Positions 1,355-18,636 of a DNA stretch of 64,000 bases are shown here, piece by piece; positions within the stretch are counted from its first letter, which is position 1; the number at the start of each line of letters is the position of its first letter. Origin of the DNA: an uncultured Lachnospiraceae bacterium (GTDB lineage Bacteria > Bacillota > Clostridia > Lachnospirales > Lachnospiraceae); NCBI GenBank assembly GCA_949948735.1, contig CATLGV010000003.1, positions 124,001 to 188,000 on the forward strand. Reading direction: 5' to 3'. The translations under genes and the position numbers were made by a program. The notes beneath the pieces are model-generated. The model was not told the DNA's origin, made no database searches, and worked only from the letters and a program-made list of their open reading frames with translations.

Positions 1355-2857
1355 CTATCTTGCGTTCAAGTCATCCAGATAAGACTGCCATGTATTTTTG
1401 ATTGCCTCTGCCTGCTGTGCCGGTGTCGTGTCCTTATTGATCGTCCATAAGAATTCATTACCCTGATCCAGACCCGGAACAACCTCCGCATAGTTTACAA
1501 GGCCATTCTCTACCATTCTTGCAAGTGTCAGGTCAACAGCCTCCGTGTCTCTGAAGCTGCTGTAATAACCAGCCTTCCAGCCCTCATAATCCTCGAAGCC
1601 GGGAATCGGCGCTGTGTACAGGTTGTATGCAAATGCAAGCTTCCATGCCTTGTCTGCATCATAGCATGCCGGAATAACTACCGGATTGTTGCTCCATACG
1701 TTCATGTAATCCTCTGCGTCCGGTCCTTTGGGGAAGCAGATAAAGCCAAAGTCGTCTTCCATATCCTTGAAGTCCGCGCCTGCCATGTACGCATTGTCAA
1801 AGCAGAATGCAGCGTCGCCGTTCAGGAATGCCTGCATGTAGTAATTCCACTCCGCGTCTGCCGGCTTCACCAGGTCGTACTCTGCCAGAACCTCATGCGC
1901 AAAGTTCAAGCCTGCAAGCGTCGCGTCGTCATCAATATGAAGCGTATACTTTAAGTCGTCTCCCTTATCTACGAGGCAGCCGCCGTTTGCGAATGCAGCC
2001 GTCTTGTAGAATTCACCCGTATTGTTTGTCGTACCGTAAACATCGATAACACCGTCATTGTCGGTATCTCTCTGAACCTTCGCCATTACCTCCTTGCACT
2101 TGTCAAACGTCCACTCGCCGTTCTCCTGCCATGTGTAAAGCTCTTCCGGATCGATACCCGCCTCTCTGAGAAGCCGCTTGTTGAAGTAGGTTCCGGTTCT
2201 GGGCTCGGGCGTCAGCGCGTACATACAGTACTTGGATTCGCCGATGGAGAACAGATCGTCTACGCCGCCCTGCCATTTTTCATCCGTAAAGTCAAGGCAG
2301 TCCAGTGTAGAAAGGTCATACATCAGGCCGCTGTACATTGCGGATACTACGGAACCGTCCATACGAAGAACAAAAATATAATTCTCGTCGCCGCCTGTTG
2401 TCGCATAGTTTACGAAATCCTCGGGTACGGTTGCCCACTCGCTGATACCAAGCTCTCTGATCTTGAAATTGTATGTCTCCTGACACCACTCACGCCACTC
2501 CTGCACCGCTTCCTCATATGCGTTTGTAGGCTCTGAGGGCTCCTCTGCCGACCACCAGTCACGGATAATGATCTCCATGCCGCCCAGGTCGTATACATTT
2601 CCGTTCTCATCTGTCAGAACCGTATAGCCGCCGTCTTCTTCACCCGCAGCTTCCGTCGTAGTCTGCTCTGCAGCTTCCGTATTGGCCTCGGTTTTTGTTG
2701 TATCCGCTGCATTATTTGCCGTTGTATCCGCCGGCGCGTTGGTGTCTGTGTTCGCATTTGCCGCATCATCTTTGCTGCCGCAGCCTGTCATGCCCGCAGC
2801 AACCATGGACAGCGTCATTGCTGTCGCAATCAGTTTTGTTACACTTTTTCTTTTCAT
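1355..2857 (-). CDS. Sugar ABC transporter solute-binding lipoprotein (CUT1)
   Basis: A 500-residue family-1 extracellular solute-binding protein. It has a lipoprotein signal (KRKSVTKL, hydrophobic core, AAGMTGCGSK with lipidation Cys at residue 26), then a Ala/Asn/Thr/Glu-rich unstructured tether to about residue 75, then the binding fold. Residues such as TYFNKRLLREAGIDPEE and the acidic cluster DTDNDGVIDVYG are typical of CUT1 oligosaccharide receptors. It is the last gene of the operon, directly after the permease pair 2935-4840, and is presumably their receptor. A hairpin just upstream of its ribosome site may raise its mRNA level above that of the permeases. The ligand is not readable; a xylan-derived oligosaccharide is inferred from context. 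Confidence 0.85.
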   Translation of the reverse strand: MKRKSVTKLIATAMTLSMVAAGMTGCGSKDDAANANTDTNAPADTTANNAADTTKTEANTEAAEQTTTEAAGEEDGGYTVLTDENGNVYDLGGMEIIIRDWWSAEEPSEPTNAYEEAVQEWREWCQETYNFKIRELGISEWATVPEDFVNYATTGGDENYIFVLRMDGSVVSAMYSGLMYDLSTLDCLDFTDEKWQGGVDDLFSIGESKYCMYALTPEPRTGTYFNKRLLREAGIDPEELYTWQENGEWTFDKCKEVMAKVQRDTDNDGVIDVYGTTNNTGEFYKTAAFANGGCLVDKGDDLKYTLHIDDDATLAGLNFAHEVLAEYDLVKPADAEWNYYMQAFLNGDAAFCFDNAYMAGADFKDMEDDFGFICFPKGPDAEDYMNVWSNNPVVIPACYDADKAWKLAFAYNLYTAPIPGFEDYEGWKAGYYSSFRDTEAVDLTLARMVENGLVNYAEVVPGLDQGNEFLWTINKDTTPAQQAEAIKNTWQSYLDDLNAR

Positions 2858-2877
2858 TGTAAATCCTCCTTCTTTCT

Positions 2878-2906
2878 ATATAAATTCCTGTATCAGAAAT
2901 TTATAT
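2878..2906 (-). promoter_or_regulatory. Intercistronic hairpin before the binding-protein gene
   Basis: AT-rich inverted repeat ATATAAATT...AATTTATAT in the 77-base gap between permease and binding-protein genes, just 5' of the AAGGAGG ribosome site. Such hairpins commonly stabilise binding-protein messages relative to permease messages; that role is inferred. Confidence 0.4.
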
Positions 2907-2934
2907 CTTCCATGAATTTCATCCGTTGTCAATC

Positions 2935-3939
2935 TTACATCTTGATACCGGAGCTGCTGATACTCTCCACAAATCCCTTCTGCGCAAACAAATACAGAAT
3001 TAACAACGGTACGATTACCATCAGCATTCCTGTCGAAATCATGCAGCTGGTGTACGCTACGGACGCACCCGTTCTATCCCCGACAACCAGGGACACATAC
3101 TGGTTCACACGGTCGGCTATCATCGAAAGCTCTCTGGCCAGCAGCCGCGTATTGCCCATAAACATCTTCGCATAAAAGCTGTCCGTCCACTCCCACACAA
3201 ACGAGAACAGGAAGCAGGAGGTCAGTATCGGCGTTGCGTCCGGAAGCATAATCCGTGCAAAGGTAGAAAAAATACCGCATCCGTCCACATAAGCCGCCTC
3301 TTCCAGCTCCTTGGGGATATTCCGGAAAAACTGGCGTATCATATAGATATAGAGCCCGTTCTTCAAGCCCATGCAGCCTGCGCTCATCAGGTAATACGGA
3401 AGCTTCGAACCGCGCAGGTTAATGCCTTCCCCCCGAATCGCTCCTATAATCCCGAATATGTCAAAATATCTGAAATGCAGATACAGGGACGTCGATATCG
3501 TCTGCGGCGGGACAATGATAACGAGCAGTACGCAGACAAACCACATTTTTTTGAGCGGAAACTCAAACCGTGCAAATCCGTAACCAACCAGCGTACACAC
3601 CGCAATCTGCAGCAGCGCGATTGTAAGGGACACGCCGATTGTGTTGATCAGCGTCTTGCCGTAATCCATCAAATCCGCCGCCAGGAAATAATTCTGTGTT
3701 GTAAAATGCTCCGGCACCGAGATAATGGTATTGTTATACAGATCCCGCTCCTCCATGAAGCTGACTGATATTTTATTCAAAATCGGCTGCAAAATCAGGA
3801 AGCACATGCCAAAAAGCAGAAATGCCCGGATAATTTTGTATACCGTCTGTCTGGTCATCTTCTTCAGCAAATAGCCGCTTGATTTGCGATTTCTTTCCCA
3901 GAAGCTTTCCTTCTCCATCTTTACAGCAGCATCACTCAT
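2935..3939 (-). CDS. Sugar ABC transporter permease, MalG type
   Basis: A 334-residue inner-membrane permease of the CUT1 family. It has a longer than usual cytosolic N-terminus (about 35 residues), six membrane segments, and an EAA loop near residue 220 (EAAYVDGCGIFSTF, then IMLP), the docking site for the ATPase. The C-terminus ends QKGFVESISSSGIKM, the common MalG-type ending. The start ATG overlaps the stop of the MalF-type partner by 8 bases, and GGGGG lies 9 bases before it. It should form a heterodimer with the product of 3932-4840 and take substrate from the lipoprotein at 1355-2857. No ATPase gene is present nearby. Confidence 0.9.
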   Translation of the reverse strand: MSDAAVKMEKESFWERNRKSSGYLLKKMTRQTVYKIIRAFLLFGMCFLILQPILNKISVSFMEERDLYNNTIISVPEHFTTQNYFLAADLMDYGKTLINTIGVSLTIALLQIAVCTLVGYGFARFEFPLKKMWFVCVLLVIIVPPQTISTSLYLHFRYFDIFGIIGAIRGEGINLRGSKLPYYLMSAGCMGLKNGLYIYMIRQFFRNIPKELEEAAYVDGCGIFSTFARIMLPDATPILTSCFLFSFVWEWTDSFYAKMFMGNTRLLARELSMIADRVNQYVSLVVGDRTGASVAYTSCMISTGMLMVIVPLLILYLFAQKGFVESISSSGIKM

Positions 3940-4840
3940 AGTAGTAAACCCCCTTTGATATGATCAGCGAGCTGATTCCTATGATTAATATGACGACTCC
4001 GAAATAAATCCACGACATCGCCGATGCAAAACCATAATTAATCTGGATTGTAATCTCTTCACTGATTTTCTTGATCACTTCATTGTCAGTACGCATACAG
4101 AAGTCCACGATCGTGTATATCCAGTTCACGACAAACAGGGAGCTTATCATCGGGAACGTAATCTTCCAGAGGCTTTCCCACGCCGTACATCCCTCGATAT
4201 CCGCCGCCTCATACATGCTCTGGGAGATGGTCTGCAGGCCGGAAAGGAAAATAATAATCTGGATGCCGGATGCGATAGCCACGTCATAAATGCCGTCCAC
4301 AATCTCAAATACCTTTGAAAACGCCCTTGTTCCGATACCCGCAGTCTGCAGGATTTCCTCGATTGCTCCCGTGATGCTGATGCCGCTCGACGCCGTCTGG
4401 CCAATCGCGTCCTGAATGCTCGCCATCAGCTTATTGTCTGTTTCCACACCGATGATAACGCCCGACGAAAGGATTACCGGCAGGAAGAAAATCGCCCGGA
4501 CCAGCGCCCGCCCCTTGAACTTCTGGTTCAAAATCAATGCCACAAAAAAGCTGAATACCATAATCGCCAGCGAGTTAATACACATACGGGAGATTTCCTC
4601 CGTCAAAAGACGGTTAAACTCGGCGTCAAGCGTAAAGGCACGCACATAATTGACGATTCCCTTAAACTGCGGCGAAAAGCTGCCTGCCCCCACCTGTACA
4701 TCGCAGAAGCTCATATATAACGACTGTGCCATAGGCTGTATCATAAAGGCCAGAAAGCCTACGATAAACGGCAGAATAAACATGTATCCCGCAATCGCTT
4801 TCCGTTTCTGAAGACCCGCTAATTTCTTCTGTTTCTTCAT
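3932..4840 (-). CDS. Sugar ABC transporter permease, MalF type
   Basis: A 302-residue CUT1 permease. Six membrane segments are visible, beginning at about residue 18 (AGYMFILPFIVGFLAFMI). The EAA loop EAADIEGCTAWESLWKITFP lies near residue 215. The 45-residue stretch between the third and fourth membrane spans (about 125-185, GVETDNKLMASIQD...) is longer than in many relatives and carries no recognisable domain. ATG at 4840 is preferred over an upstream TTG because AAAGGA precedes it by 8 bases. It pairs with the MalG-type permease whose gene it overlaps. Confidence 0.9.
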   Translation of the reverse strand: MKKQKKLAGLQKRKAIAGYMFILPFIVGFLAFMIQPMAQSLYMSFCDVQVGAGSFSPQFKGIVNYVRAFTLDAEFNRLLTEEISRMCINSLAIMVFSFFVALILNQKFKGRALVRAIFFLPVILSSGVIIGVETDNKLMASIQDAIGQTASSGISITGAIEEILQTAGIGTRAFSKVFEIVDGIYDVAIASGIQIIIFLSGLQTISQSMYEAADIEGCTAWESLWKITFPMISSLFVVNWIYTIVDFCMRTDNEVIKKISEEITIQINYGFASAMSWIYFGVVILIIGISSLIISKGVYYYE

Positions 4841-4889
4841 AATCAAAATCCTTTCTATTCTTTACTTACCGCAATTCCGGCGCGGGTGG

Positions 4890-7484
4890 TCATCTGACGA
4901 CCAAAAAGTCTCTTGCCGGAACTACAATGCCGTCCGCCACTGTCACATCTTCATAGTCATAATTTACATATACCCTGGTGCCGTCCTCGTATGTCGTGCA
5001 GGCTGTCTTTTCCGCCACATACGCGTGATCCGTCATCTGTTGGTTGAATGTATGCCCCAGCTCCTGATTATACCGGGTATAAATCTCCTGCATCCTGTCA
5101 TGCCATGATGCAAAATCCGCTCCGAAATATTCGGTATACAGGGTCTTCTGCAGCGCAAACGCATCCTCATGCATGGCCGCAAAATACAGGCCTGCGCCAT
5201 ACTCTGCCGACTTGAGCAGCTCCTGCCGGTAATTCTGCGTCAGGTTAAGCGCCTCTCCCGTGTAGTTCACATACCCGTGTATCGCCAGCTGGTAAAACGG
5301 AACCGCCTGGTCGATAATGGTATATTCCGAACCGTTCAGATCCATATTGGTCACAATGTCGCTGTAGGCCAGCGCATAGTCATTGCCCTTGTTGACCATA
5401 ATGCGCATGCCGCTGTCGCTGATTTCCTTGAGCTTTGCCTCCTGCTTCTGCTTTGCGGTCTGTCTGCTCACCGGCGCGTTCTTATAGAAGTCCGAGGATA
5501 CGACGTCCCCGATGTCCTGGAAGGATACGCCCGCCTGGTATTTGACAGCCGCCGCTTTCAGGTTCTCGGCCATCTCCAGAATATTATCCGCATGCAGCAG
5601 ATAGAAAGCATCCGCGCTGTCTTTATCCTTGATATAGGTAACGACCCGGTAGTCGTTGAGTTCAACCTTCTCCTTGCTCACCAGCCGCGCCGCATCCGTG
5701 TACAGCACGAACCCGTCCGTCACGCCGCTGTCAATCGCATAGTTTGTAATACCGTTCAGATAAAGATCTATGCCGTTCTCCGCCGCATAAGCCGACAGCG
5801 CTTTCAGGTCTTTCTTGCTGCCCAGCTCGGATACCAAATCAACATCCGTCAATATCTGCTGCCGCACGCCGCCGTTCATCCAGCCGGTAAGCTTTACGGA
5901 GAGATTTTCCATACCGTCTTCCTTAAGCTGACGAAGGATATCCGTTGTCTCCTTGTAGCTGGTAAGCCTTAACGGGCGCGAAACCGGTACGCCAAGCACC
6001 TGCTTTACCTTATCCACGGCACCGACTACTTCCAGCGCCACCGGCGTCTGCGTATCGTCGTTCAGCGCCATATCGGACGCATATCGTTCAAGCAGATACT
6101 GCTGATACGTTTTTGCCATATCCACATAGCTGTTGCTGTCCACAAAGCGGTAACGCTGCACCAGCTTTTCCTCCGGAAGCTTTGACTCATAGATAAACAA
6201 CCGGCCCCTGTCCTTGTTGGAGCTGTCGTACTGGAACTGCTCCCTGTGTACGACATTGTACACAGCGTTGACGAAATTGTAGCTGTGGGTTTTGCCGCTG
6301 ACGTCGGCCTGTATGGACGCATACGGCGCGCCCTCCTCCAGAAGGCACAGGAAAGCGTCTTCCCCGTTGGCCACTCCGTATGTCGCAAAGCTTGCTTCCG
6401 TCTCATGCACCACAAATTCCCGGTTCAGCGCCATATCCCAGCCGTATACATTCGCGTAATAGCTGTTCTGCGCCGTCTTGCCGTTGTTGAAGTTGATGAG
6501 CGCCCCGCCGCCCTCCGGCACAAACATGAACCCTTCGTCTTTGGTTCCGCCCGCTCCAAAGTAAGGCAGCAGCGTCACGCTGTACAGCGGATATTCTTCT
6601 CTGTATTCCATCTCCTGCAGCGGCACTTCCACAATCAGGTCCGGACCGTCGAGCCGGTATATGACATTGACATTGAAAATCGGCTTGTCAGAAACTGCCG
6701 CTCTCATATCAAGGGCCTTATCCGCCTCGTATTGCTCCACTGTATAGCCGGCTTCCTCAAAAAAGGTCTCAAACTTCCGCTTCATATTATCCTTGGTCGT
6801 ATCACGCAGGACGTAGATAACCTCATCCGCAAGAATCGGATAGTTTGCAAGAAGCTCTTCCGCGTTGTCCTTCTTACCAAGATTATTGATGTCGTACTTC
6901 TTATAGTAATCCTGAACCATGACGGCATTGTTCTTTCCCATCTTTTCCATCAGGACATCCATATCCGACGCCCGGATTACCGGCGGTATCATAAATTCCT
7001 TCTGCAGATCGCCGATAGAGTATTTCACCTTCACATAATCGTCGCCTGTCTCAATATCATAGATTCCCTTCTTAATGCTGTAGCCGTAGCTGCTGTACAT
7101 CATGTCAATTCCGTTGATGTTACTGTATGTAATCAGCAGCGTAGACTGCAGATTATCCTTCTCTGCCTCCAGGGCCAGGGGATCCTCCTGCACGTCCTGC
7201 GGCGTTGAATACCATACCTTGCCAGTTTCCTTTACCGTAAGCTCAAACTGCGTCGTCTCCGGATTCATCTCGAATTTCAGGTCATTGTTTTCCAGGATGA
7301 TCGGCTCTTTGTCCTCCCCCGCATAGGCGTTGACCTCGATATACTCCGGTTCTCCCTCGTCGCCCTTGTACAGGGTAATGACCAGAATAAACGCCGTGAC
7401 CACCAGCAGACCGATAACAGGAACTGCCATGCTTTTTAATCGTTTCATTATTTTATCTTTATTGAATGATTTATCCTTCTTCAT
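4890..7484 (-). CDS. DUF5696 family membrane-anchored surface protein
   Basis: An 864-residue protein of the DUF5696 family, which has no assigned biochemical function. It has a cytosolic Lys-rich N-terminus, one membrane segment (about residues 17-37, AVPVIGLLVVTAFILVITLY), and an extracellular remainder, so it is anchored rather than secreted. The N-terminal third is beta-rich (NDLKFEMNPETTQFELTV). A middle stretch (about residues 500-660, with DGMENLSVKLTGWMNGG and AYAAENGIDLYLNGI) alternates strands and helices like a TIM-barrel glycosidase; this is inference from pattern only. Start ATG 7484 has GGGAG eight bases upstream; the ATG 15 bases further up overlaps that ribosome site. It lies between YIP1 and the second CUT1 permease pair. 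Confidence 0.75.
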   Translation of the reverse strand: MKKDKSFNKDKIMKRLKSMAVPVIGLLVVTAFILVITLYKGDEGEPEYIEVNAYAGEDKEPIILENNDLKFEMNPETTQFELTVKETGKVWYSTPQDVQEDPLALEAEKDNLQSTLLITYSNINGIDMMYSSYGYSIKKGIYDIETGDDYVKVKYSIGDLQKEFMIPPVIRASDMDVLMEKMGKNNAVMVQDYYKKYDINNLGKKDNAEELLANYPILADEVIYVLRDTTKDNMKRKFETFFEEAGYTVEQYEADKALDMRAAVSDKPIFNVNVIYRLDGPDLIVEVPLQEMEYREEYPLYSVTLLPYFGAGGTKDEGFMFVPEGGGALINFNNGKTAQNSYYANVYGWDMALNREFVVHETEASFATYGVANGEDAFLCLLEEGAPYASIQADVSGKTHSYNFVNAVYNVVHREQFQYDSSNKDRGRLFIYESKLPEEKLVQRYRFVDSNSYVDMAKTYQQYLLERYASDMALNDDTQTPVALEVVGAVDKVKQVLGVPVSRPLRLTSYKETTDILRQLKEDGMENLSVKLTGWMNGGVRQQILTDVDLVSELGSKKDLKALSAYAAENGIDLYLNGITNYAIDSGVTDGFVLYTDAARLVSKEKVELNDYRVVTYIKDKDSADAFYLLHADNILEMAENLKAAAVKYQAGVSFQDIGDVVSSDFYKNAPVSRQTAKQKQEAKLKEISDSGMRIMVNKGNDYALAYSDIVTNMDLNGSEYTIIDQAVPFYQLAIHGYVNYTGEALNLTQNYRQELLKSAEYGAGLYFAAMHEDAFALQKTLYTEYFGADFASWHDRMQEIYTRYNQELGHTFNQQMTDHAYVAEKTACTTYEDGTRVYVNYDYEDVTVADGIVVPARDFLVVR

Positions 7485-7519
7485 AGTCAGCTCTCCCATA
7501 ATCTATCTTGTTATCCATC

Positions 7520-8176
7520 TCACATTCGGAAAAGGAGTTCCCTGCCGACTGAGATGAAATAAGCGATACCCTGCGAAATCATACTGAAGAACAACAGCAG
7601 GATAAAAATCATAACCAGCATGGAAAATCCGGTCGCCACCGTAAACAACAGCGTTTTCTTCACCGTATACTCGTGAATCTGTATCATGGCGGCGAGTATG
7701 AGCAGCGCTGCCCACAGCAGCGATATCACACTCAGAACACCGTAAAACTCCGCTTCATCGATTGTCACCACATTGCTGAACGCAATCAGCGGGAACTGAA
7801 TCAGCGGGTACGGCGTAAGGCCGTAACAGGTTGCCATATAAATCTGCCTGAGCGTCCCCTTGCCGTCAAACAGCGTCGTCAGGCCCCAGTTGCCGACGCA
7901 CCACAGCGCCAGCGGGAACAAGACGCTCGCAATATAGAGAAAGATATTGATGCCTTCCCAATACACCTTCAAAAACACAAAGCTTGTAAACTGCAGCTTC
8001 ATAACCCGCGCAAGCAGCGTCAGAAACAAGATGGTATTGGCTGCCGCAAGCGAACCTCTTTTTTCGTGTGTCAGATCCCAGAACCCGTCAAACGGATGCG
8101 TGATTACATACAACGCATATTTCAGCGTTGCCAAATAATGCGTAAAGACTTCCTTTTTGTTTAAAAAAGCGATCAT
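7520..8176 (-). CDS. YIP1 family integral membrane protein
   Basis: A 218-residue protein with about five membrane segments (approximately 50-66, 80-100, 125-145, 150-172 and 183-210) after an amphipathic N-terminus (YALYVITHPFDGFWDLTHEK). This P-x-D-G-F-x-D-x-x-x-E-K opening is typical of bacterial YIP1-domain proteins, whose function is unknown; eukaryotic Yip1 proteins work in vesicle membranes, which is not transferable here. GGAGG precedes the start by 6 bases. It is flanked by the NHL-TPR gene (20 bases) and the DUF5696 gene (35 bases), the recurrent partners of this family in carbohydrate-transport clusters, which suggests a membrane scaffold or chaperone role for the importer. That role is inference. 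Confidence 0.8.
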   Translation of the reverse strand: MIAFLNKKEVFTHYLATLKYALYVITHPFDGFWDLTHEKRGSLAAANTILFLTLLARVMKLQFTSFVFLKVYWEGINIFLYIASVLFPLALWCVGNWGLTTLFDGKGTLRQIYMATCYGLTPYPLIQFPLIAFSNVVTIDEAEFYGVLSVISLLWAALLILAAMIQIHEYTVKKTLLFTVATGFSMLVMIFILLLFFSMISQGIAYFISVGRELLFRM

Positions 8177-8196
8177 TCCTGCCTCCGATTCATCCT

Positions 8197-9693
8197 TTAA
8201 AAAATATCTGCAGTGTCAATTTCGTGCTTGATCTTCCTGACCCTTCCGACCGCCAGCGGCAGACACAGGACAAGGAACAGCGCCAGCACAATCAGCACGA
8301 TATGCTCTTCCACCCATTCCTTCCGGTACTGCTTAAACGCCTTGGAATAGTTCTCGTCGTCCCATTTTAATTCGAAATATTCCATCGCTTCATGGTACTT
8401 TTCCTGCCGCAGCAGCGAACGGCCGATACCGATGTAAGCCAGGTCATAATTGCCGTTGAGCTTGAGCACTTCCTTCCAGATCTCCCCGGACTCATAATAT
8501 TTACCGTTCTGGAACGCTTCGATTGCCTCATAAACCAGTCCGCCGAATTCTGTCGTCGAAAATACCGTGACGCTGCAGTCCACCGAATCCAGTACCAGCA
8601 AGTCATGTCCCATATGGTCTAACGCCGACGGCTGCCTGAAATAACCGTCCATATTGCCGGCCCCGCCAAAGGTGAACACCATGTCCCCCTGGTCGTTATA
8701 TCCGAAAAGTCTCCCCCGCACCTTGTCAAGCGCAACATAGATGTCGTTTTCAAGCGCCGTAATGTCCGAAAACAGCGACGGTCCGTCGTAGCCGGAATTC
8801 TCGCCGTTCCACCACAAATCGCCTATCGGCGCAAACGGGCCGTTGCGAATCAGGATGTCGGTTCCCATCAGATTCAGCTTCCGAATCGGCTTTGCCGAAT
8901 CATCCGCCAGGTCATCCTCCGTAACGTTGGACGTACATGCATAAATAAACCCTTCCGCGTCCATATAGAGATTGGAGTATTCCGTAGGCACAAACGACGC
9001 CAGCTTTGCCCGCTGCTCCTTCGTCGCAAGCCGCTTCCAGATATAATCCGTCCAGTCGTAGGTAACCTCCGTAGCGCCTACAAACCCGGAAAATGCACCG
9101 TCCGGCTCATACTTAATCAGACCCTGGTTGATATTGGTCGCCGCGCAGTAAACGCGTCCCGCCGTATCAATGGATATCTTATTGGGTAAAAACCTGGAAG
9201 CAGGATCTATCGTGGAATCCACCGGCTGGTCAAACTGCATCAGGTAATTCAAATCCTTGTCAAGCTTCAAAATCCGCTGATTGTTCATATCCGCGATATA
9301 GAAGCAGCCATCCTCGGATACCGCAATATCCGTAGGTGAAGAAAATGTCGTAATCTCCACATCCCCTTTAAAGCTGTCAATAATCCGCCTGCACTCAAAG
9401 CTGTCCTTCTTGGTCCGCTCCAGCTCGATAATCCGGTTGTTTCCCGTATCACAGATATAGATCATACTGCCGCAGACATATAAGCCCTGCGGGCCGCTGA
9501 GCTTATCCTCAAGCCCCATATCGGTTGCCGTAAATACTCCTGTCACCTCATACAGATCCGGAGAATACTGCACATCCTCCCACCAGTCATAATTGTAGGT
9601 ATAGCCCTTCTCCGCGTATGCAACCGTGGAAGAGCCGGCCAGCACTGCCGCGCCAAGCAGAAGCGCGCTTATTCTTTTCATTATTTTTTTCAT
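8197..9693 (-). CDS. NHL-repeat and TPR surface protein with C-terminal membrane anchor
   Basis: A 498-residue protein with a signal peptide (about 1-27, cleavage after STVAYA), then NHL/beta-propeller repeats (for example GPQGLYVCGSMIYICDTGNN, DIAVSEDGCFYIADMNNQR, KISIDTAGRVYCAATN) to about residue 385. Two TPR-like helical pairs follow (GKYYESGEIWKEVLKLNG and EKYHEAMEYFELKW), then one C-terminal membrane segment (about 462-480) and a short basic tail. The propeller and TPR therefore face outside. Both are binding modules; NHL propellers may bind glycans or proteins. It is co-transcribed between the first permease pair and YIP1. No catalytic motif is evident. Confidence 0.75.
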   Translation of the reverse strand: MKKIMKRISALLLGAAVLAGSSTVAYAEKGYTYNYDWWEDVQYSPDLYEVTGVFTATDMGLEDKLSGPQGLYVCGSMIYICDTGNNRIIELERTKKDSFECRRIIDSFKGDVEITTFSSPTDIAVSEDGCFYIADMNNQRILKLDKDLNYLMQFDQPVDSTIDPASRFLPNKISIDTAGRVYCAATNINQGLIKYEPDGAFSGFVGATEVTYDWTDYIWKRLATKEQRAKLASFVPTEYSNLYMDAEGFIYACTSNVTEDDLADDSAKPIRKLNLMGTDILIRNGPFAPIGDLWWNGENSGYDGPSLFSDITALENDIYVALDKVRGRLFGYNDQGDMVFTFGGAGNMDGYFRQPSALDHMGHDLLVLDSVDCSVTVFSTTEFGGLVYEAIEAFQNGKYYESGEIWKEVLKLNGNYDLAYIGIGRSLLRQEKYHEAMEYFELKWDDENYSKAFKQYRKEWVEEHIVLIVLALFLVLCLPLAVGRVRKIKHEIDTADIF

Positions 9694-9718
9694 ATCTTAC
9701 CCCCTGCCAAGATGCTTT

Positions 9719-10615
9719 TTAATCCTTTAATCCGGAGCTTGCCATTGTTTCCAAAATCTGACTTTCAGATAAGATAAAGATGATAATCGGTACTACCATC
9801 ACAATTACCGTAACTGCCGCCGCCTGCCCCGTCCGCGCAATACCGCCGCTCTGAATCTGCTGCAGGGCGTATACCAGCGTTTTCTTTTCCTCTGAATAAA
9901 TGAACGTCGAAGCTTTATTGTTCCACAAAGCCTGTACCTGGAAAATAATGAGCGTCAGCCAGGCCGGCTTTACGTTCGGCATTACGATATGCATAAATAC
10001 CTTCCATTCGCTCGCACCGTCAATCTTGGCCGCCTCAATCAGCGACATCGGAAGGCCCTCCATAAACTGCTTCATCAGGAACAAGCCAATCGGCGCCGCA
10101 AAAGAAGGGATAATGATCGCCCAGTATGTATCAATCCAGCCCAGGCCGTTAATAATCAGGTAATTCGGAATCGCCGTAACATATCCGCTGAACATCAACG
10201 CCACCGTTACCAGATTAAAGAAGGTCTTGCCGCCCGGGAACTCATACTTGGCAAGAACGAACGCGCCCATGGAGGCAATCAGCAGATGGCCTGTCGTGCC
10301 GACAAAGGTGATAAACACCGTATTGAAAATGTATCTTGAAAATGTAACCCACGATTTTCCCATTGTGACAAAAAGATCCGAGAAATTATCAAGCGTCGGG
10401 TTCTGCGCGAAAATCTTGGGCGGGAACATAAACAGCTCATCCAGCGGCTTCAACGCACTGTTGACTGCGAACACCAGCGGAAATATCATTGCGACCGCCA
10501 CCATGCACAGGAAGAGATATACGAAGAAGTCTCCCACGCGCGACCGGTTGGGCTGGCGCTTTTTCAATATTTTTGGTTTTTGCTTTACTTCCATAATCTT
10601 CTCTTTTTTTCTCAT
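9719..10615 (-). CDS. Carbohydrate ABC transporter permease, MalG type (second system)
   Basis: A 298-residue CUT1 permease. A cytosolic N-terminus rich in Lys/Arg precedes six membrane segments, starting at about residue 28 (DFFVYLFLCMVAVAMIFPL). The EAA loop EAAKIDGASEWKVFMHIVMP is near residue 195. It ends SQILETMASSGLKD, a usual MalG-type C-terminus. The start codon lies 1 base after the stop of its MalF-type partner, with AGGG seven bases upstream. It is a paralogue, not a duplicate, of 2935-3939. The receptor should be the giant binding protein at the head of the operon. Confidence 0.9.
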   Translation of the reverse strand: MRKKEKIMEVKQKPKILKKRQPNRSRVGDFFVYLFLCMVAVAMIFPLVFAVNSALKPLDELFMFPPKIFAQNPTLDNFSDLFVTMGKSWVTFSRYIFNTVFITFVGTTGHLLIASMGAFVLAKYEFPGGKTFFNLVTVALMFSGYVTAIPNYLIINGLGWIDTYWAIIIPSFAAPIGLFLMKQFMEGLPMSLIEAAKIDGASEWKVFMHIVMPNVKPAWLTLIIFQVQALWNNKASTFIYSEEKKTLVYALQQIQSGGIARTGQAAAVTVIVMVVPIIIFILSESQILETMASSGLKD

Positions 10616-10616
10616 A

Positions 10617-11555
10617 TCAGGTCCCTACTCTTCTTAACAAACTCTGGATTGCCTTGTTGCAAAGTATCATAATCAAAAACAGCATTGTCGCTATCGCGGA
10701 TGCGTATCCCATCTCGAAACGGGAATAGCCGTAGTCGAACAGATGCGTTACAACCGTCCGCGCCGCATAGTCCGTACTCGGATAACCGCACAGCTGCATC
10801 GTCACATCACATACGCCAAAGGACTGCGTGATTGCCATAACGGCGCCAAACATCAGCATCGGCTTCATATTCGGCAGGGTGATATACCACAGCTCCTGCC
10901 AGCGGTTCTTAATCCCGTCCATGTAGCCTGCCTCATACTGCGATTTGTCAATACCCTGCAGACCGGCCACAAAGGACAGGAACCCGGTTCCAAGGCTCAT
11001 CCAGAGGATAACGACCATACAAATCGGAAGCATGTACTTGGGGTCTGTAAGCCACAGCACCGGTCTTCCGATAAGCCCCCAGTTCATCAGGAACGCATTG
11101 ACATATCCGTACGCGTCTCCTCTAAAGAAGATGGAGAAGATGACGAACACGTTGCCCGCAATCGACGGCGCATAGAACACGACAATCGCAATGGTTCTGA
11201 TCCAGCGGGGAATCTCGTTGATCAGCCAGGCAAACAGGAAGGACATGATATAACCGAGCGGACCTGTTATAACTGCGATCATAAAGGTATTTTTTACGCC
11301 CGTCAGGAAAATGTCATCCTCCAAAATCAAACTGATATAGTTCTGTAATCCCACAAATGTCGGAGATTCTAGAATATTGTAATAAGTAAAGCTCAGTACA
11401 ATGGAGCTCACAACAGGGACGATGTAAAACATCGTAAACAAAATCGCGTAGGGCGCAAGAAACAGATAACACATTTTGCTTCTCTTGGCCTTCTTGATAC
11501 TTACCTGAAGATTATGCCGCCTTAATCTGAAATATTTTCTGATATATTCTTTCAC
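10617..11555 (-). CDS. Sugar ABC transporter permease, MalF type (second system)
   Basis: A 312-residue CUT1 permease with six membrane segments, starting near residue 28 (CYLFLAPYAILFTMFYIVP), and the ATPase-docking EAA-type loop (EAGYMDGIKNRWQELWYITL) near residue 222, where the canonical second Ala is Gly. It uses a GTG start at 11555 with GGGGGTAAGAAG directly before it. It follows the binding-protein gene by 18 bases and adjoins the MalG-type partner. The membrane pair presumably carries an oligosaccharide too large or too branched for the other importer, but nothing in the sequence proves this. Confidence 0.9.
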   Translation of the reverse strand: MKEYIRKYFRLRRHNLQVSIKKAKRSKMCYLFLAPYAILFTMFYIVPVVSSIVLSFTYYNILESPTFVGLQNYISLILEDDIFLTGVKNTFMIAVITGPLGYIMSFLFAWLINEIPRWIRTIAIVVFYAPSIAGNVFVIFSIFFRGDAYGYVNAFLMNWGLIGRPVLWLTDPKYMLPICMVVILWMSLGTGFLSFVAGLQGIDKSQYEAGYMDGIKNRWQELWYITLPNMKPMLMFGAVMAITQSFGVCDVTMQLCGYPSTDYAARTVVTHLFDYGYSRFEMGYASAIATMLFLIMILCNKAIQSLLRRVGT

Positions 11556-11573
11556 CTTCTTACCCCCTGTCCT

Positions 11574-14528
11574 TTATTCTTCTATTGGCAGACCGAACTC
11601 TCTACGCTTCTTGGTAATCTCTTCGTCGATTGTAATGCTGTAATCCAGAATCGTCTCGCGCGGATCCTCTTTTTTGTTGACAATCTTACGAATCGCGTTC
11701 GTAATATGACGTCCGGTATAATAACCGCCCGGCACTTCCCGTATACCGACCGTCTGCAGCCACTGTGCCGAAAGCGTCTCGATATCGTCCGCGTTCCATG
11801 CAAGCTGGCTGAACGCGTCGAAGTTTGCCGTCGCATATCTTGCCGACGATCCCAGAAGCGCCTCCATCTCGCGCCCGAAACGCACCTGCGTATCCGCCTG
11901 CGCCCACCACTTCATAAATTCCCATGAAGCATTCCGCAGCATGTCGTCCTCTGTCTTGATCATCATTGTCGCGCTGCCCGAAATAAAGTCGGAACGGTCA
12001 ATATAGGTGTTTCCGGAAGCATCCGTGACCTCCGTACCCGGAATCAGGGTGAAATCCCATAATCCGCGTATCTCCGGCGCCGATACCATCAACGTGTTAT
12101 AAACGCTGTACGAGGCGATGCCAATCGGCATCTCACCGGAACGGAACCGGCTCACAAAATCAAAGAACACCGGAATACCGTAATCTGTAAAATACTCGCT
12201 GTAGTCCTCAATCGCCGCCACACCGGCTTCCTCATCGACAGTGGTGTAGGTCCCGCCTTCACTGTACAAATCGCCGCCGTTCTGGAACAGCATGCTGAAA
12301 TACATACTCAGGTCCGCCGCATTCGATGCAACCGACGTGCTTGCCGCCGCATTCGTACTGCTTCCCGCCGCGGAGGGAATGCCAATCGACATATTGTTGC
12401 CCTGTATGGTCGGCAGCATCTCAATCAGCTCCTGCCATGTCTGGGGCACCCCAAGCTCCAGCTCCTCCAGAACATCCTTGCGGTAAAACATTACGTTGAA
12501 CGTCTGCGTCTCCGGAATAGCATAAATGCTGTCGCCCAGACGGTACTGCTCATAGGAGCTTGCCGTGTAGGATTTGAGAACCTCCTCCAGGTCTTCAAAC
12601 TGCGACAAGTCCTCCACCGCGTTACGCAGCGCGTAATTCACCGGCTGGTCCGCGCCCACGGAAAGCACGATATTAGGCCCGCGCCCCGCCACAACGGCGC
12701 TCAGCAGCGCATCCGGCGCAACGATTTCTACGTTGACCTTGATGCCGCTCTGCGGCGTAAAGGTGTCATCCACCATACTCTTCAAAATCGTTCCCTGATC
12801 ACGTCCCGTAAGCACCCACACGTGGATAACATCCTCACTGTCTGCATCGTACACATCGCCGACCGCGTCATAATCCACGGTAAACGACGCCGTAAAGGAA
12901 CGCACCTCATGTACGGCTCTGTCCCATCCGTTTGCACGATCCTTTTCCGGCTGGGCATCCCGCCCTGTAATCACAAGATAATCAATATCCAGCTTCGTCT
13001 CGCTCATATTCAAAATCGCGGTTCCAAGCGCCGTGATATTATCCTTAAAGCTGATAAACTCAATCGTAATTCTGTCCGGCCGTTCTACAAAGCGTTCCAG
13101 CTGCTGCGCCAGTGTCTGCGCCGTAGCGATTTTGTCCGCCTTCTGCCCGGTATAGAGCACCGTATCGTCAACCGCCTTGTACAGCCGCTTTGACTCCAGG
13201 GACATCGCCTCGATGATTTCCGGATATACCCTGTCGATATTGTAATCCCTGTATTTATCCGGCTGCGCTCCCGTATAAATCAGAAGCTTCCGGTATATCT
13301 GATTGAGACGGTATGTAGAGTCCTCGAGCTCTTCGAGAATGGCCCCCATGCTTCCAAGCGTCGCTTCCAGCCGGAAGGTATGCCTGCCCGCCGTCAGATA
13401 GAACCAGTACGGCTCGCCGTTCTCATCCCCCAGCGTCATCAGCTTCCAGTCATTCGAATAGTCAAAGGAAACCTCCTTAACCTCCTCAAACGGAACCTTT
13501 CCGTCTATGTATACGCATCTGCTGGACACGCTGCCTCTGGAATAGTTCTGGCGGCCCTTGACCGTGATGCTGTAATAGCCGTCCTCCGGCACTTCAAATT
13601 CCCACTCAATCCACTGGCCCGACGACCGCCATGCGTCGCCGCCCACATAATTCAAAAGCGTGTTCGTCACGCTGTAAGGCTGTGTTGTCGGGGAAGAGCG
13701 GTCATATTTTGCATAGAGGGATGCCTCGGAACGGAATGTGGACGCCTCGCCCTGCACCTTCTGCAGATAGGAACGGCCCTCGCCCGAAGCCTCCTGCCCG
13801 CCCCGGCTCTGAAGATATTCCTGATATCCGATTTCCGGCTCCAGTCCTCTCACGGAAATCGTCTTTAAGACAAGCGGCTCGTTGACCGCCTCAATCGTCA
13901 GCGTGTTCTCGCCTTTTTCAAAGAAAAACCGATAAGGCTCGGTAATATAACCCATATCATCACGGCAGTATGCCTGCTGCCATTCATACTCCTCAATCTG
14001 TGTCGGGCGAATCTCATTTCCCTGGTTATCGATTCTCGGATCCCCGTCATTTTTCCAGATTCTGGTAAACATAATATTTCCCGCATCAGAAAACGGCAGC
14101 TCCCCGTTAATGCGAATCGCGCGTTCCGCCGCAACGCCTCTGGATTCTACCGTCATATATTCTATGTAAATGTTATAAAAGCCTGTCTCCGGAATATTCA
14201 GCTTCCAGCTGATCTCCGAATCCTGGCCCGTATACACAACATTCTGCTCTCCTTCGTACTCGGCGTAAACCTCCACGCCTGTACCGGATTCATACTCGGT
14301 GACAGGAATATCAACCCGCTGCGCCGGGCATGCCGCATCCTGATGCTCGTTGAGGTAGATGGTATACGTCCCCTCTCTGCCCGTGCCCGCCACGTCCGTG
14401 GTCAGGTCATAGCCTGCATATTTTGCCTGAAAATCATCTTCACTGAGCAAATTTTTTACAATCAGCGCAATTGCAACGATTCCGACCAATCCGCATAAAA
14501 AGATGGTTTTTTTAACAGAGTCTTTCAT
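11574..14528 (-). CDS. Giant membrane-anchored solute-binding protein with carbohydrate-binding-like modules
   Basis: A 984-residue protein, about twice the usual receptor length. It has an N-terminal membrane anchor (about 8-25, FLCGLVGIVAIALIV) without a lipobox. Two beta-sandwich modules follow that resemble carbohydrate-binding domains: about 55-230 (SWKLNIPETGFYNIYIEYM) and about 255-390 (QWIEWEFEVPEDGYYSITVKG). A helical linker of about 150 residues leads to a family-1 solute-binding domain from about residue 560 to the end (VWVLTGRDQGTILKSM, YAIPETQTFNVMFYRKD, SWEFMKWWAQADTQVRFG). ATG 14528 with GGGAGG five bases upstream is preferred to an ATG 54 bases higher. It is the first gene of the nine-gene operon and the likely receptor of the 9719-11555 permeases. 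Confidence 0.8.
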   Translation of the reverse strand: MKDSVKKTIFLCGLVGIVAIALIVKNLLSEDDFQAKYAGYDLTTDVAGTGREGTYTIYLNEHQDAACPAQRVDIPVTEYESGTGVEVYAEYEGEQNVVYTGQDSEISWKLNIPETGFYNIYIEYMTVESRGVAAERAIRINGELPFSDAGNIMFTRIWKNDGDPRIDNQGNEIRPTQIEEYEWQQAYCRDDMGYITEPYRFFFEKGENTLTIEAVNEPLVLKTISVRGLEPEIGYQEYLQSRGGQEASGEGRSYLQKVQGEASTFRSEASLYAKYDRSSPTTQPYSVTNTLLNYVGGDAWRSSGQWIEWEFEVPEDGYYSITVKGRQNYSRGSVSSRCVYIDGKVPFEEVKEVSFDYSNDWKLMTLGDENGEPYWFYLTAGRHTFRLEATLGSMGAILEELEDSTYRLNQIYRKLLIYTGAQPDKYRDYNIDRVYPEIIEAMSLESKRLYKAVDDTVLYTGQKADKIATAQTLAQQLERFVERPDRITIEFISFKDNITALGTAILNMSETKLDIDYLVITGRDAQPEKDRANGWDRAVHEVRSFTASFTVDYDAVGDVYDADSEDVIHVWVLTGRDQGTILKSMVDDTFTPQSGIKVNVEIVAPDALLSAVVAGRGPNIVLSVGADQPVNYALRNAVEDLSQFEDLEEVLKSYTASSYEQYRLGDSIYAIPETQTFNVMFYRKDVLEELELGVPQTWQELIEMLPTIQGNNMSIGIPSAAGSSTNAAASTSVASNAADLSMYFSMLFQNGGDLYSEGGTYTTVDEEAGVAAIEDYSEYFTDYGIPVFFDFVSRFRSGEMPIGIASYSVYNTLMVSAPEIRGLWDFTLIPGTEVTDASGNTYIDRSDFISGSATMMIKTEDDMLRNASWEFMKWWAQADTQVRFGREMEALLGSSARYATANFDAFSQLAWNADDIETLSAQWLQTVGIREVPGGYYTGRHITNAIRKIVNKKEDPRETILDYSITIDEEITKKRREFGLPIEE

Positions 14529-14909
14529 ATATGCCTCCCATGTAACCTGGCGGCCGCTTCCGCCCGCCTGTATTTCCCGCACCCGGAATCAGCGCCCTGC
14601 GCCTCTTCCCTGACTGTTTTCATTATATTGTAGATTTTGCCCTCCCGCTCCTCACACCTTGCTTTTGACTTTTCATATTTTGCTCATTTTCGGTCGTTTC
14701 CCCTCCCCGATTCATGGGATTTTATCTGTTTTTATTGCGTGCCACCTCCAAACCTTTGTGCACTTTGTATGTTTTTTGTCAGAAAAATATACCAATTGCC
14801 CTTATTAGCATTTACTTTTTGCCCGGAAGATGCTAAAATAACAGTAGAATAAAGACATATTTCCAGTCAACGTTTTACGAAAGCACACCGTCAGGCAGGG
14901 AAGGCCACC
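14529..14909. promoter_or_regulatory. Divergent control region between the transport operon and its AraC regulator
   Basis: 381 bases without a gene. Leftward there is a TATAAT (14627-14622) with no good -35, as expected for an activator-dependent promoter. Rightward there is TTTACT, a 17-base spacer and TAAAAT (-10 at about 14834-14839). An inverted repeat TTAGCAT/ATGCTAA (14805-14811 and 14830-14836) covers the rightward promoter and is a candidate operator. The rest is pyrimidine-rich with no other recognisable element. Confidence 0.5.
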
Positions 14910-15911
14910 TTGCGGCGCGGCTCTTGGGAGGGGATTTATACGGATTTGCGCAGCTTAAAAAAGGATATATATAATGATGATTTAAGAAATATCAACGGAA
15001 ACGATTTTGACTTTTACACGGCAAACGATGACTATACCGGATCTATTATTATCAACAACAACCACGAAATCGTAGCTTACCGCAACGGCTCTACCGTCCG
15101 TGTCTGGTACAATGAGCAGGATCTCTGCTACCCGCTTCACTGGCACAATACGCTGGAGATCATCCTGCCAATCGACAACTGCTATTTCGCATGCGTCAAC
15201 GAGGTTACTTACCGCATCGAAACCGGTGAGATTTTTATGATACCGCCCGGCGAACTGCACACGGTCTATCCCCCCAAAGATGGCGGGAAGCGCCTTGTCT
15301 ATCTGCTGGATATCAATATGATCGCCAATCTGAAGGATTTCGCGGGGATTCAACCGATGCTGGCGGCGCCGCTTCATATTAAGAAAGATTCTCCGTTCAT
15401 TTATAAGGATATCCTTGCAATCCTGCTCCGGATACAGTACGAATACTTTTCCGACACGGTTTACAACGAGCTGACCATCTACTCGCTGCTGCTGAACATG
15501 TTCGTCAAGCTCGGAACCAACTACCAAAACGACAAGCTGCGCCTCTCGACCTCCCAGTCGTGCAGGCAGAACGAATATCTCCAAAAATTTAACGATTTGC
15601 TCGCCTACATAGACCTTCATTACGCAGAGCCATTAACGCTGGACGATATGGCGGCCAAAATGAGCTTCAGCAAATTCCATTTTTCGCGCCTCTTTAAGCA
15701 GTATACCAACTACACCTTCTGCGACTACTTAAATTACAGGCGCATAAAGGCGACGGAGGAGCTTTTGCTGTCCCCCGATTTATCGATTACGGATATTGCA
15801 ATGCAGGTAGGATTTTCCAGCATCTCGACCTTTAACCGGGTATTCCGGGAGCACAAAAAGTGCTCCCCCAGCGAATACCGCGCCAAGCTGTCCCTCATCC
15901 ATCAGAAATAG
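14910..15911 (+). CDS. AraC family transcriptional regulator
   Basis: A 333-residue regulator with an N-terminal cupin sugar-sensing domain (about 70-160, with LHWHNTLEI and GEIFMIPPGELHTVYPP) and a C-terminal double helix-turn-helix of AraC type (about 225-325, with MAAKMSFSKFHFSRLF and ITDIAMQVGFSSISTFNRVF). It is transcribed divergently from the nine-gene transport operon and convergently with the xylan locus, so it probably activates one or both on binding a xylan-derived sugar. The start is uncertain: TTG at 14910 has GGGAAGG five bases upstream, and no ATG occurs in frame before residue 150. Its stop lies 1 base from the stop of the esterase gene, with no terminator between. Confidence 0.85.
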   Translation: MRRGSWEGIYTDLRSLKKDIYNDDLRNINGNDFDFYTANDDYTGSIIINNNHEIVAYRNGSTVRVWYNEQDLCYPLHWHNTLEIILPIDNCYFACVNEVTYRIETGEIFMIPPGELHTVYPPKDGGKRLVYLLDINMIANLKDFAGIQPMLAAPLHIKKDSPFIYKDILAILLRIQYEYFSDTVYNELTIYSLLLNMFVKLGTNYQNDKLRLSTSQSCRQNEYLQKFNDLLAYIDLHYAEPLTLDDMAAKMSFSKFHFSRLFKQYTNYTFCDYLNYRRIKATEELLLSPDLSITDIAMQVGFSSISTFNRVFREHKKCSPSEYRAKLSLIHQK

Positions 15912-17673: not shown

Positions 17674-18636
17674 CTACGGTCGTTTAAACAATGCCGGCTT
17701 GGGCCGCATTACCGAGATCACCTTGCTCTTTTGCAGATTCAGCGTCAACAGCAGCCTCCCCTCGTCACGCCGCTCGGGCCGCATCAGGTAGAAGCTGTAG
17801 GTATTGATCAGATCCAGCAGATTCGCGGTGCGCCCCTCGATCTTGAAATTGTGGAAGCCCATCGGCACATAGCTTTCCCATATTGCCTCGGGCGACACAT
17901 ATGTCGGATATTTCTGTATCGTATAGAGTGTGTTGTGTTCCCCGTACTCGCAGCCCCATCCGGGAATCGGGGTCTGCTTTTCCTTCGGAAGCGTACGGTT
18001 TTTCAGCGCGATTTCCTGCTGCTTCGCAATATGCCTGTAGTGCTCCCCCCGCCGCGGGCAATCCGGCACACAGCAGGCATTTACAAGGATCTCACATTTC
18101 TCCTTATGCACGACCTGCTCCAGCAGCTCAAACTGGTTGTTGAGGTTGTAATCCAGCACCACAAGGCTGTAATCTTTTTCCAGCTCTTCGTTGACCGCCG
18201 CTACACCCCTGATTTCCTTGCAGGTTGAGCTGTTGATTTTATACCGCGGATACTTCCTGCGGATATATGCCTCCAGAACCGGGGAAACGACCAGCACCTC
18301 ATTCATGCCGTTGTCCGCTGTTTCCATACAGAAATTGCAGTAATCATCGTCAAGGTCCTTCTCCGTAAGCAGCGGATTGGTATAGGTAAACCGCACCGGT
18401 ATCCCCTGCGCATTGATGCTTCTGACCACATTTTGGACAAAGGGCGCGTCACACTGGTCATTATTTGAAAACCGTCCGCCGTTCCACAGCGACGTCGGAA
18501 ATTCTCCGAAAAAGGAAGCAATCTCCAGGTTCTCCCTGAAAAACTCCGGATACTGCCGCAGCATGCTTAATATTGTCATATTTAAGGGATAATTGTACCG
18601 CAGTCCCGGCAAATGAAACCGTACCTTATTGTTCAT
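17674..18636 (-). CDS. U32-like iron-sulfur protein, paralogue B
   Basis: A 320-residue paralogue of the protein at 336-1238, sharing FHLPGLRYNYPLNM, SLWNGGR, VVSPVLEAYIRRKYP and the second half ACCVPDCPRRGEHYRH (Cys near 206, 207 and 211). It carries the U32 hallmark FHNFKIEGRT near residue 276. A further Cys (GWGCEYG, about 243) could complete a four-Cys Fe-S site. It sits between GH2 (9 bases) and the esterase (45 bases), so it is expressed with the xylan enzymes. U32-like proteins are not known sugar enzymes, so its job here is open; a redox or RNA-modifying role or an unrecognised sugar reaction are both possible. GGAG precedes the ATG. Confidence 0.6.
   Translation of the reverse strand: MNNKVRFHLPGLRYNYPLNMTILSMLRQYPEFFRENLEIASFFGEFPTSLWNGGRFSNNDQCDAPFVQNVVRSINAQGIPVRFTYTNPLLTEKDLDDDYCNFCMETADNGMNEVLVVSPVLEAYIRRKYPRYKINSSTCKEIRGVAAVNEELEKDYSLVVLDYNLNNQFELLEQVVHKEKCEILVNACCVPDCPRRGEHYRHIAKQQEIALKNRTLPKEKQTPIPGWGCEYGEHNTLYTIQKYPTYVSPEAIWESYVPMGFHNFKIEGRTANLLDLINTYSFYLMRPERRDEGRLLLTLNLQKSKVISVMRPKPALFKRP

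Follow-up and report, generated by a model that had tools for sequence, protein, structure and literature searches.

The window analysed here, a 64,000-nucleotide stretch from an uncultured Lachnospiraceae bacterium (assembly GCA_949948735.1, contig CATLGV010000003.1, positions 124,001 to 188,000 of the forward strand), carries on its minus strand at positions 1355 to 14528 nine genes for two CUT1-type ATP-binding cassette (ABC) sugar importers and, between them, an NHL-TPR protein, a Yip1-family protein (YIP1) and a DUF5696 protein. On balance, and with modest confidence, we favor the reading that this operon encodes one dedicated multi-subunit CUT1 sugar-uptake machine, probably acting at the surface on sugars of plant cell walls, in which the DUF5696 protein is an accessory subunit of the second permease pair (F2-G2) and the ATPase is shared. 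Across Bacillota, NHL-TPR, YIP1, DUF5696, and F2-G2 form a core that is passed on as one unit; the four permeases of the cassette form four separate clades and keep the glycine of the loop that docks the ATPase; and the DUF5696 protein combines a single transmembrane segment (TM) with a GH129 fold that has no conserved GH129 catalytic pair. From these genes we infer complex formation, transport, and the substrate.

The conservation of the cassette was examined in two genome draws and a contig scan. Of the 150 genomes of the window's family, 43 had PF18952 matches above the profile's cut-off (some of these matches being partial and GH129-type), as had 39 of the 398 genomes of the phylum draw. 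Every strong match of the family draw was fetched except two partial pieces of genome G016, whereas 38 of the 58 strong matches of the phylum draw (own genome included) were picked for spread over families. Nine weak stretches among the 94 fetched were set aside, and the window and 80 scan loci were added. The scan yielded at least 581 relatives; the 80 used were the best by similarity, not a random sample, and include Paenibacillus, Cohnella, Bacillus, Lederbergia, Caldicoprobacter, Mahella, Halanaerobiaceae, and Limnochordia. Six of the 166 DUF5696 sequences duplicated others over the last 300 residues and were removed, leaving 160 unique loci (86 from the draws and the window, 74 from the scan). 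Only loci with enough flank entered the denominators of the neighbor counts.

YIP1 was located at most 1.5 kb upstream of DUF5696 in 155 of 156 loci, the exception (L172) having a flank of 1.1 kb, and NHL-TPR was located at most 3.8 kb upstream in all 148. F2 and G2 were each found beside DUF5696 in 150 of 151 loci; the sole miss, L062, has instead an upstream F-G pair whose members belong to the F2 and G2 clades. Synteny was equally good in the 86 draw and window loci and in the 74 scan loci. Six junctions were measured, running from the fourth gene ahead of DUF5696 to the second one behind it; depending on the junction, the spacing was 100 bases or less in between 101/106 and 108/108 loci. 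In the window's own genome, which is 84% complete, three DUF5696 genes and three Yip1 genes were found, pairwise adjacent. Because these pairs adjoin and the order recurs across Bacillota, a chance arrangement is excluded. Reverse linkage was similar: the 150 family genomes have 49 Yip1 matches above the cut-off, 45 of which adjoin DUF5696 (read by eye), and no cassette part was present in the 5.5-7 kb fetched around the other four. The recurrence of the trio beside CUT1-type permeases, which the initial annotation had named as the supporting outcome of such a survey, was observed in almost all DUF5696 loci whose flank sufficed.

The giant receptor gene was present in 110 of 119 loci with ample flank (draws, 62/65; scan, 48/54). 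The nine loci without it in the flank examined, six of which are metagenome-assembled genomes, still carry NHL-YIP1, DUF5696, F2, and G2, and the receptor could sit elsewhere in their genomes. In L137, L141, L143, L148, L149, and L181, the giant receptor and F1-G1 lie downstream of the trio; L143 and L182 are apparently the same place. Of 51 matches to the N-terminal half of the giant receptor, 45 were on the same contig as DUF5696, and in the other six the contig ends before the DUF5696 position; this receptor type therefore seems private to the system within the family. From these locus counts, the core comprises NHL-TPR, YIP1, DUF5696, F2, and G2, and the giant-receptor importer is a near-constant companion. 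The earlier proposal that the trio serves or couples two importers is partly supported: the trio is tied to the second permease pair, whereas the giant receptor is missing from nine loci and, with F1-G1, lies on the opposite side in several others.

The permeases were assigned by trees with a background taken from the own genome (14 MalF-type and 14 MalG-type permeases), a few duplicate loci being kept. The best clades contained all 123 F1 (plus two others), all 152 F2 (plus one), all 119 G1 (plus six), and all 152 G2 sequences (plus three), with supports of 0.998 to 1.0. Except for L165, the extra members look, from the gene-order listing, like cassette genes overlooked by the position rule. 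In the window, F1 (10617-11555; BPD_transp_1, 53.1 bits) and F2 (3932-4846) are MalF-type, whereas G1 (9719-10615; 51.4 bits) and G2 (2935-3939; 38.8 bits) are MalG-type; clade support was 0.998 for G1 and 1.0 for the other three. F2 scored 26.3 bits, barely below the Pfam permease cut-off of 26.4. The glycine of the cytoplasmic EAA---G loop was found in 123/123 F1, 150/152 F2, 119/119 G1, and 152/152 G2 sequences, in total 544/546 with duplicates included. In window F2, an outer loop of some 65 residues looks unusual by eye, and G2 is about 40 residues longer than usual (median 329 versus 291 in the background). The F2 loop and the long G2 are possible docking surfaces for DUF5696 or YIP1.

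Solute-binding proteins are encoded with the permeases. The giant receptor (11574-14528), of 984 residues, has an N-terminal membrane anchor, its only TM, followed by CBM35-like modules and a solute-binding domain (SBP_bac_8, 80.1 bits). Its residues 292-406 matched the profile of the cycloisomaltooligosaccharide glucanotransferase 5x7g (E 1.5e-9), and residues 567-880 that of the solute-binding protein 5ysb (E 1.1e-30). The lipoprotein receptor (1355-2857; 500 residues) gave 35.6 bits with SBP_bac_1 and has a lipobox by eye. Pairwise distance correlations among the eight core genes were 0.88-0.95 (108 loci, 107 unique). The lowest co-variation was that of the lipoprotein receptor with the core, 0.65-0.77 (45 loci), which serves as an internal contrast and, being lower, marks this receptor as an exchangeable part.

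A single OB_MalK ATPase was found elsewhere in the window's genome, and no relative of it above 250 bits was found in the flanks of the 160 loci. A shared ATPase would therefore power both importers.

The NHL-TPR protein (8197-9693; 498 residues) consists of a signal or anchor, an NHL propeller (38.9 bits), TPR helices, and a C-terminal TM, its two predicted TMs being at residues 8-26 and 465-483. The TPR part is below the Pfam cut-off (17 bits) and is clear from the profile and the structure model of a fused relative. The polytopic Yip1 protein (7520-8176; 218 residues) scored 45.3 bits against a cut-off of 28.6 and has four TMs by hydropathy. With one TM in DUF5696, all three proteins are predicted to be membrane-bound, in agreement with the initial annotation. 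NHL-TPR and YIP1 are a single polypeptide in 86 of 155 loci, and the fused or separate state changed at least 12 times on the DUF5696 tree. Propellers dominate what VIA-align listed for the NHL-YIP1 model, so that the Yip1 part was barely probed. An apparent YIP1-DUF5696 fusion in L083 was rejected as an over-extended open reading frame, yip1 there being a separate frame. Instead of being structural subunits, the three proteins might sense the state of glycans or of the wall and thereby regulate the transporters. Against this, the Pfam scan found no kinase, HTH, or cyclase domain in any of the three, and their linkage is to permeases. We regard such a sensor as highly improbable.

The DUF5696 protein (4890-7499; 869 residues; 640.4 bits) has one N-terminal TM and an extracellular part, nearly the whole of which showed a GH129 fold in structure comparison. 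NagBb D435 and E478, which we take to be the catalytic pair, are present at those numbers in the alignment. The window DUF5696 protein lacks the GH129 Asp/Glu pair: its acid/base site is N703 by both hhalign and MAFFT. Of the 160 sequences, just 65 have E or D at the acid/base column. Among eight further GH129 positions, only the GW tryptophan is kept. Near-invariant residues of the family itself are N752 (158/158), R679 (154/160), and W540 (153/160). Pre-processing of oligosaccharides by DUF5696, suggested earlier, is therefore unlikely for the window copy, which has the GH129 fold without the conserved pair. The stronger statement that DUF5696 has lost every catalytic residue was rejected, since the residue counts are mixed.

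A number of observations weigh against the single-machine reading, beginning with catalysis. The nucleophile column of the window DUF5696 protein is Q661 by hhalign and D662 by MAFFT, a one-residue register ambiguity; 97 of 160 DUF5696 proteins are acidic in the MAFFT column, and 37 of 160 keep an acidic pair. These counts would suit a catalytically active DUF5696, a glycosidase or transglycosidase tethered to the membrane and trimming oligosaccharides at the importer mouth with altered catalytic residues or mechanism, as would the extent of the GH129 fold, the possibility that N752, R679, and W540 line a pocket, and the occurrence of GH129-type relatives beside genes for a solute-binding protein and an F-G pair in some genomes. 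The acid/base counts, the seven GH129 positions not kept, and N703 in the window copy speak against such an enzyme, which we consider unlikely.

The permeases and the ATPase provide further points of this kind. The docking-loop EA pair is weaker than the glycine (F1, 121/123; F2, 110/152; G1, 96/119; G2, 133/152). The window's genome has 50 BPD_transp_1 matches, of all types and not of sugar permeases alone, and a second ATPase may be missing from a genome of this completeness. On a Paenibacillus cellulosilyticus plasmid (L265, 11787-17251), three LLM-class flavin oxidoreductase genes and more solute-binding protein genes lie downstream of the cassette, and a UgpC ATPase gene lies upstream of it. 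Because of this adjacent UgpC-type ATPase and the flavin oxidoreductases, a remote ATPase and a role in hemicellulose use do not apply to all cassettes; the L265 cassette is perhaps a sulfonated-sugar version. Finally, the distance correlations include shared species history, and gene order and co-variation can be compatible with co-regulation without a complex. The nine genes might share nothing beyond an operon, as two independent importers plus accessories, related in function but with no physical complex or coupling. The absence of the giant receptor from nine of 119 loci, its position downstream of the trio in others, and the separate permease clades are in line with this. It fits poorly with the joint occurrence of NHL-TPR, YIP1, DUF5696, and F2-G2 wherever the flank sufficed, except in L062 (F2-G2 relocated) and L172 (YIP1 undetected), and with the repeated fusion or fission of NHL and YIP1, and we judge it quite unlikely.

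The nine weak PF18952 loci (L063-L069, L157, and L158) were tried as cassette relatives and excluded from the synteny counts, as they gave no NHL or YIP1 profile matches. They carry GH101/GH129-, DUF6259- or short DUF5696-type proteins (Pfam on eight; L068 unscanned). L063 and L064, which have neither NHL nor YIP1, encode shorter DUF5696-type proteins (560-584 residues; 181 and 166 bits) that are intermediate between GH129 and the cassette family. L065-L069 encode GH129-type glycosidases, and a profile including four of them matched NagBb at 840.8 bits. The glycosidase genes of L065, L067, and L069 are near genes for a solute-binding protein and an F-G pair, possibly the ancestral state of DUF5696 as an importer neighbor.

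Under the favored reading of one dedicated machine, the giant receptor, at the wall, would catch hemicellulose oligosaccharides that are long or branched and deliver them to F1-G1, and the lipoprotein receptor, as the exchangeable specificity part, would deliver to F2-G2. NHL-TPR and YIP1 would act as scaffold and assembly factor, as YknW does for YknXYZ. DUF5696, in most members something other than an ordinary hydrolase, would be a glycosidase-derived accessory of F2-G2, its task being to hold or orient glycan chains or to stabilize the permeases in the manner of 4F2hc/rBAT, and a common ATPase would energize both permease pairs. Hemicellulase genes are found near the cassettes in the window and at other loci; the tally of neighboring enzymes drew on 94 of the 136 candidate proteins in the first locus set and on the 25 families listed first out of 83, whereas the 87 proteins picked from 112 in the second set were left unscanned.

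The cassette resembles CUT1 importers with a shared MsmX/UgpC-type ATPase in its MalF/MalG-type permeases with the loop glycine, its solute-binding proteins, and the lack of a close ATPase relative at the 160 loci, the window's genome having one; the MsmX label for this ATPase is presumptive. It differs from them in having two dedicated permease pairs per operon, three conserved accessory membrane proteins, and a carbohydrate-binding receptor of about 1000 residues. DUF5696 shares its fold with GH129 (and GH101) glycosidases such as NagBb (5wzn) and ZgGH129 (5opq/8rzk), for which PMC8106489 and PMC6923384 give background. Unlike these enzymes, it is a membrane-anchored importer neighbor, and few of its members have the acidic pair. 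According to PMC8537225, 4F2hc and rBAT are animal single-TM proteins with a glycosidase-type ectodomain that serve transporters; catalytic residues are missing in 4F2hc and kept in rBAT without shown activity. DUF5696 is similar to these SLC3 proteins in combining one TM with a bulky glycosidase-fold ectodomain next to a transporter. They differ in having an SLC7 partner and in occurring in vertebrates, whereas DUF5696 stands beside ABC permeases, and the GH13 type of their ectodomain probably sets them apart as well; the analogy is one of working, not of membership. YknW, the Yip1 protein of Bacillus YknWXYZ, is described in PMC4887032 as modulating YknXYZ assembly, and by analogy the cassette YIP1, likewise a Yip1 protein with an ABC transporter, may have such a role. 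YknWXYZ is an efflux system with a MacB-like permease, whereas the cassette is a CUT1 importer whose YIP1 is often fused to NHL-TPR. The outer-membrane utilisomes of Bacteroidetes, as outlined in PMC7618045, are surface machines of transporter, glycan-binding, and glycosidase-type proteins. They are SusCD complexes shown as such, whereas the cassette consists of Gram-positive ABC importers with a putative complex, and the Pfam scan found neither a SusC barrel nor a SusD lid among the nine operon proteins.

The cassette would, by these analogies, merge the ideas of a Yip1 assembly factor, a glycosidase-type subunit, and a surface glycan machine in a Gram-positive CUT1 importer. More tentatively, since we hold it to be possible and short of probable, it could be a Gram-positive 'utilisome': one membrane supercomplex in which two different ABC permease pairs share the NHL-TPR/YIP1 scaffold and a mostly non-catalytic, glycosidase-derived DUF5696. 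This subunit would take over long glycans from receptors that reach the wall and pass them into the transporter, as an independently arisen bacterial counterpart of 4F2hc/rBAT. To our knowledge, little is understood of how Gram-positive bacteria of gut and soil bring long, branched plant glycans through their thick wall and into an ABC importer. A fixed gene set, with the same core in all but two (L062 and L172) of the 160 unique loci where the flank sufficed, names candidates for the missing parts of glycan uptake and makes the question testable. A function hypothesis is also supplied for DUF5696 and its accompanying YIP1 and NHL-TPR proteins; if it is true, the recruitment of glycosidase folds as subunits of transporters would have happened here independently. 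In the open-access literature searched, no description of the module was found by title or abstract start among the papers listed, and no paper mentioned DUF5696.

As for the operon itself, open reading frame calls and Pfam located all nine minus-strand genes in the order and families first annotated. The intergenic distances, from the giant receptor onward, are 18, 1, 25, 20, 20, 43, -8, and 77 bases; a single overlap of 8 bases was counted where two had been reported. At the place given for the terminator, there is a terminator-like 12-pair hairpin with a T-rich tail (1343-1315, minus strand) directly after the last stop. Translation of the giant receptor probably begins, judging from the sequence, at the ATG at 14528, the start given before, which is preceded by GGAGG; an alternative GTG lies upstream at 14582. 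Sigma-70-like promoters showed no excess in the region (21 versus 18.4 in shuffles). The gene arrangement suggests a single nine-gene transcript. From its position, a divergent AraC-family regulator gene (14910-15911, plus strand; HTH_18, 85.4 bits) likely encodes the controller of the operon.

Either side of the operon region, two proteins of about 300 residues (336-1238 and 17674-18636, both minus strand) are alike by eye and had no Pfam match at E 0.001. The flank of the operon encodes xylan-type enzymes of the GDSL, GH2, GH115, GH10, GH3, GH43-CBM6, and GH8 types. Within this xylan locus, a gene at 34518-36422 (minus strand) encodes a periplasmic-binding/LacI-type sugar-sensing domain fused to a GGDEF diguanylate cyclase domain, possibly a sugar-to-c-di-GMP switch.
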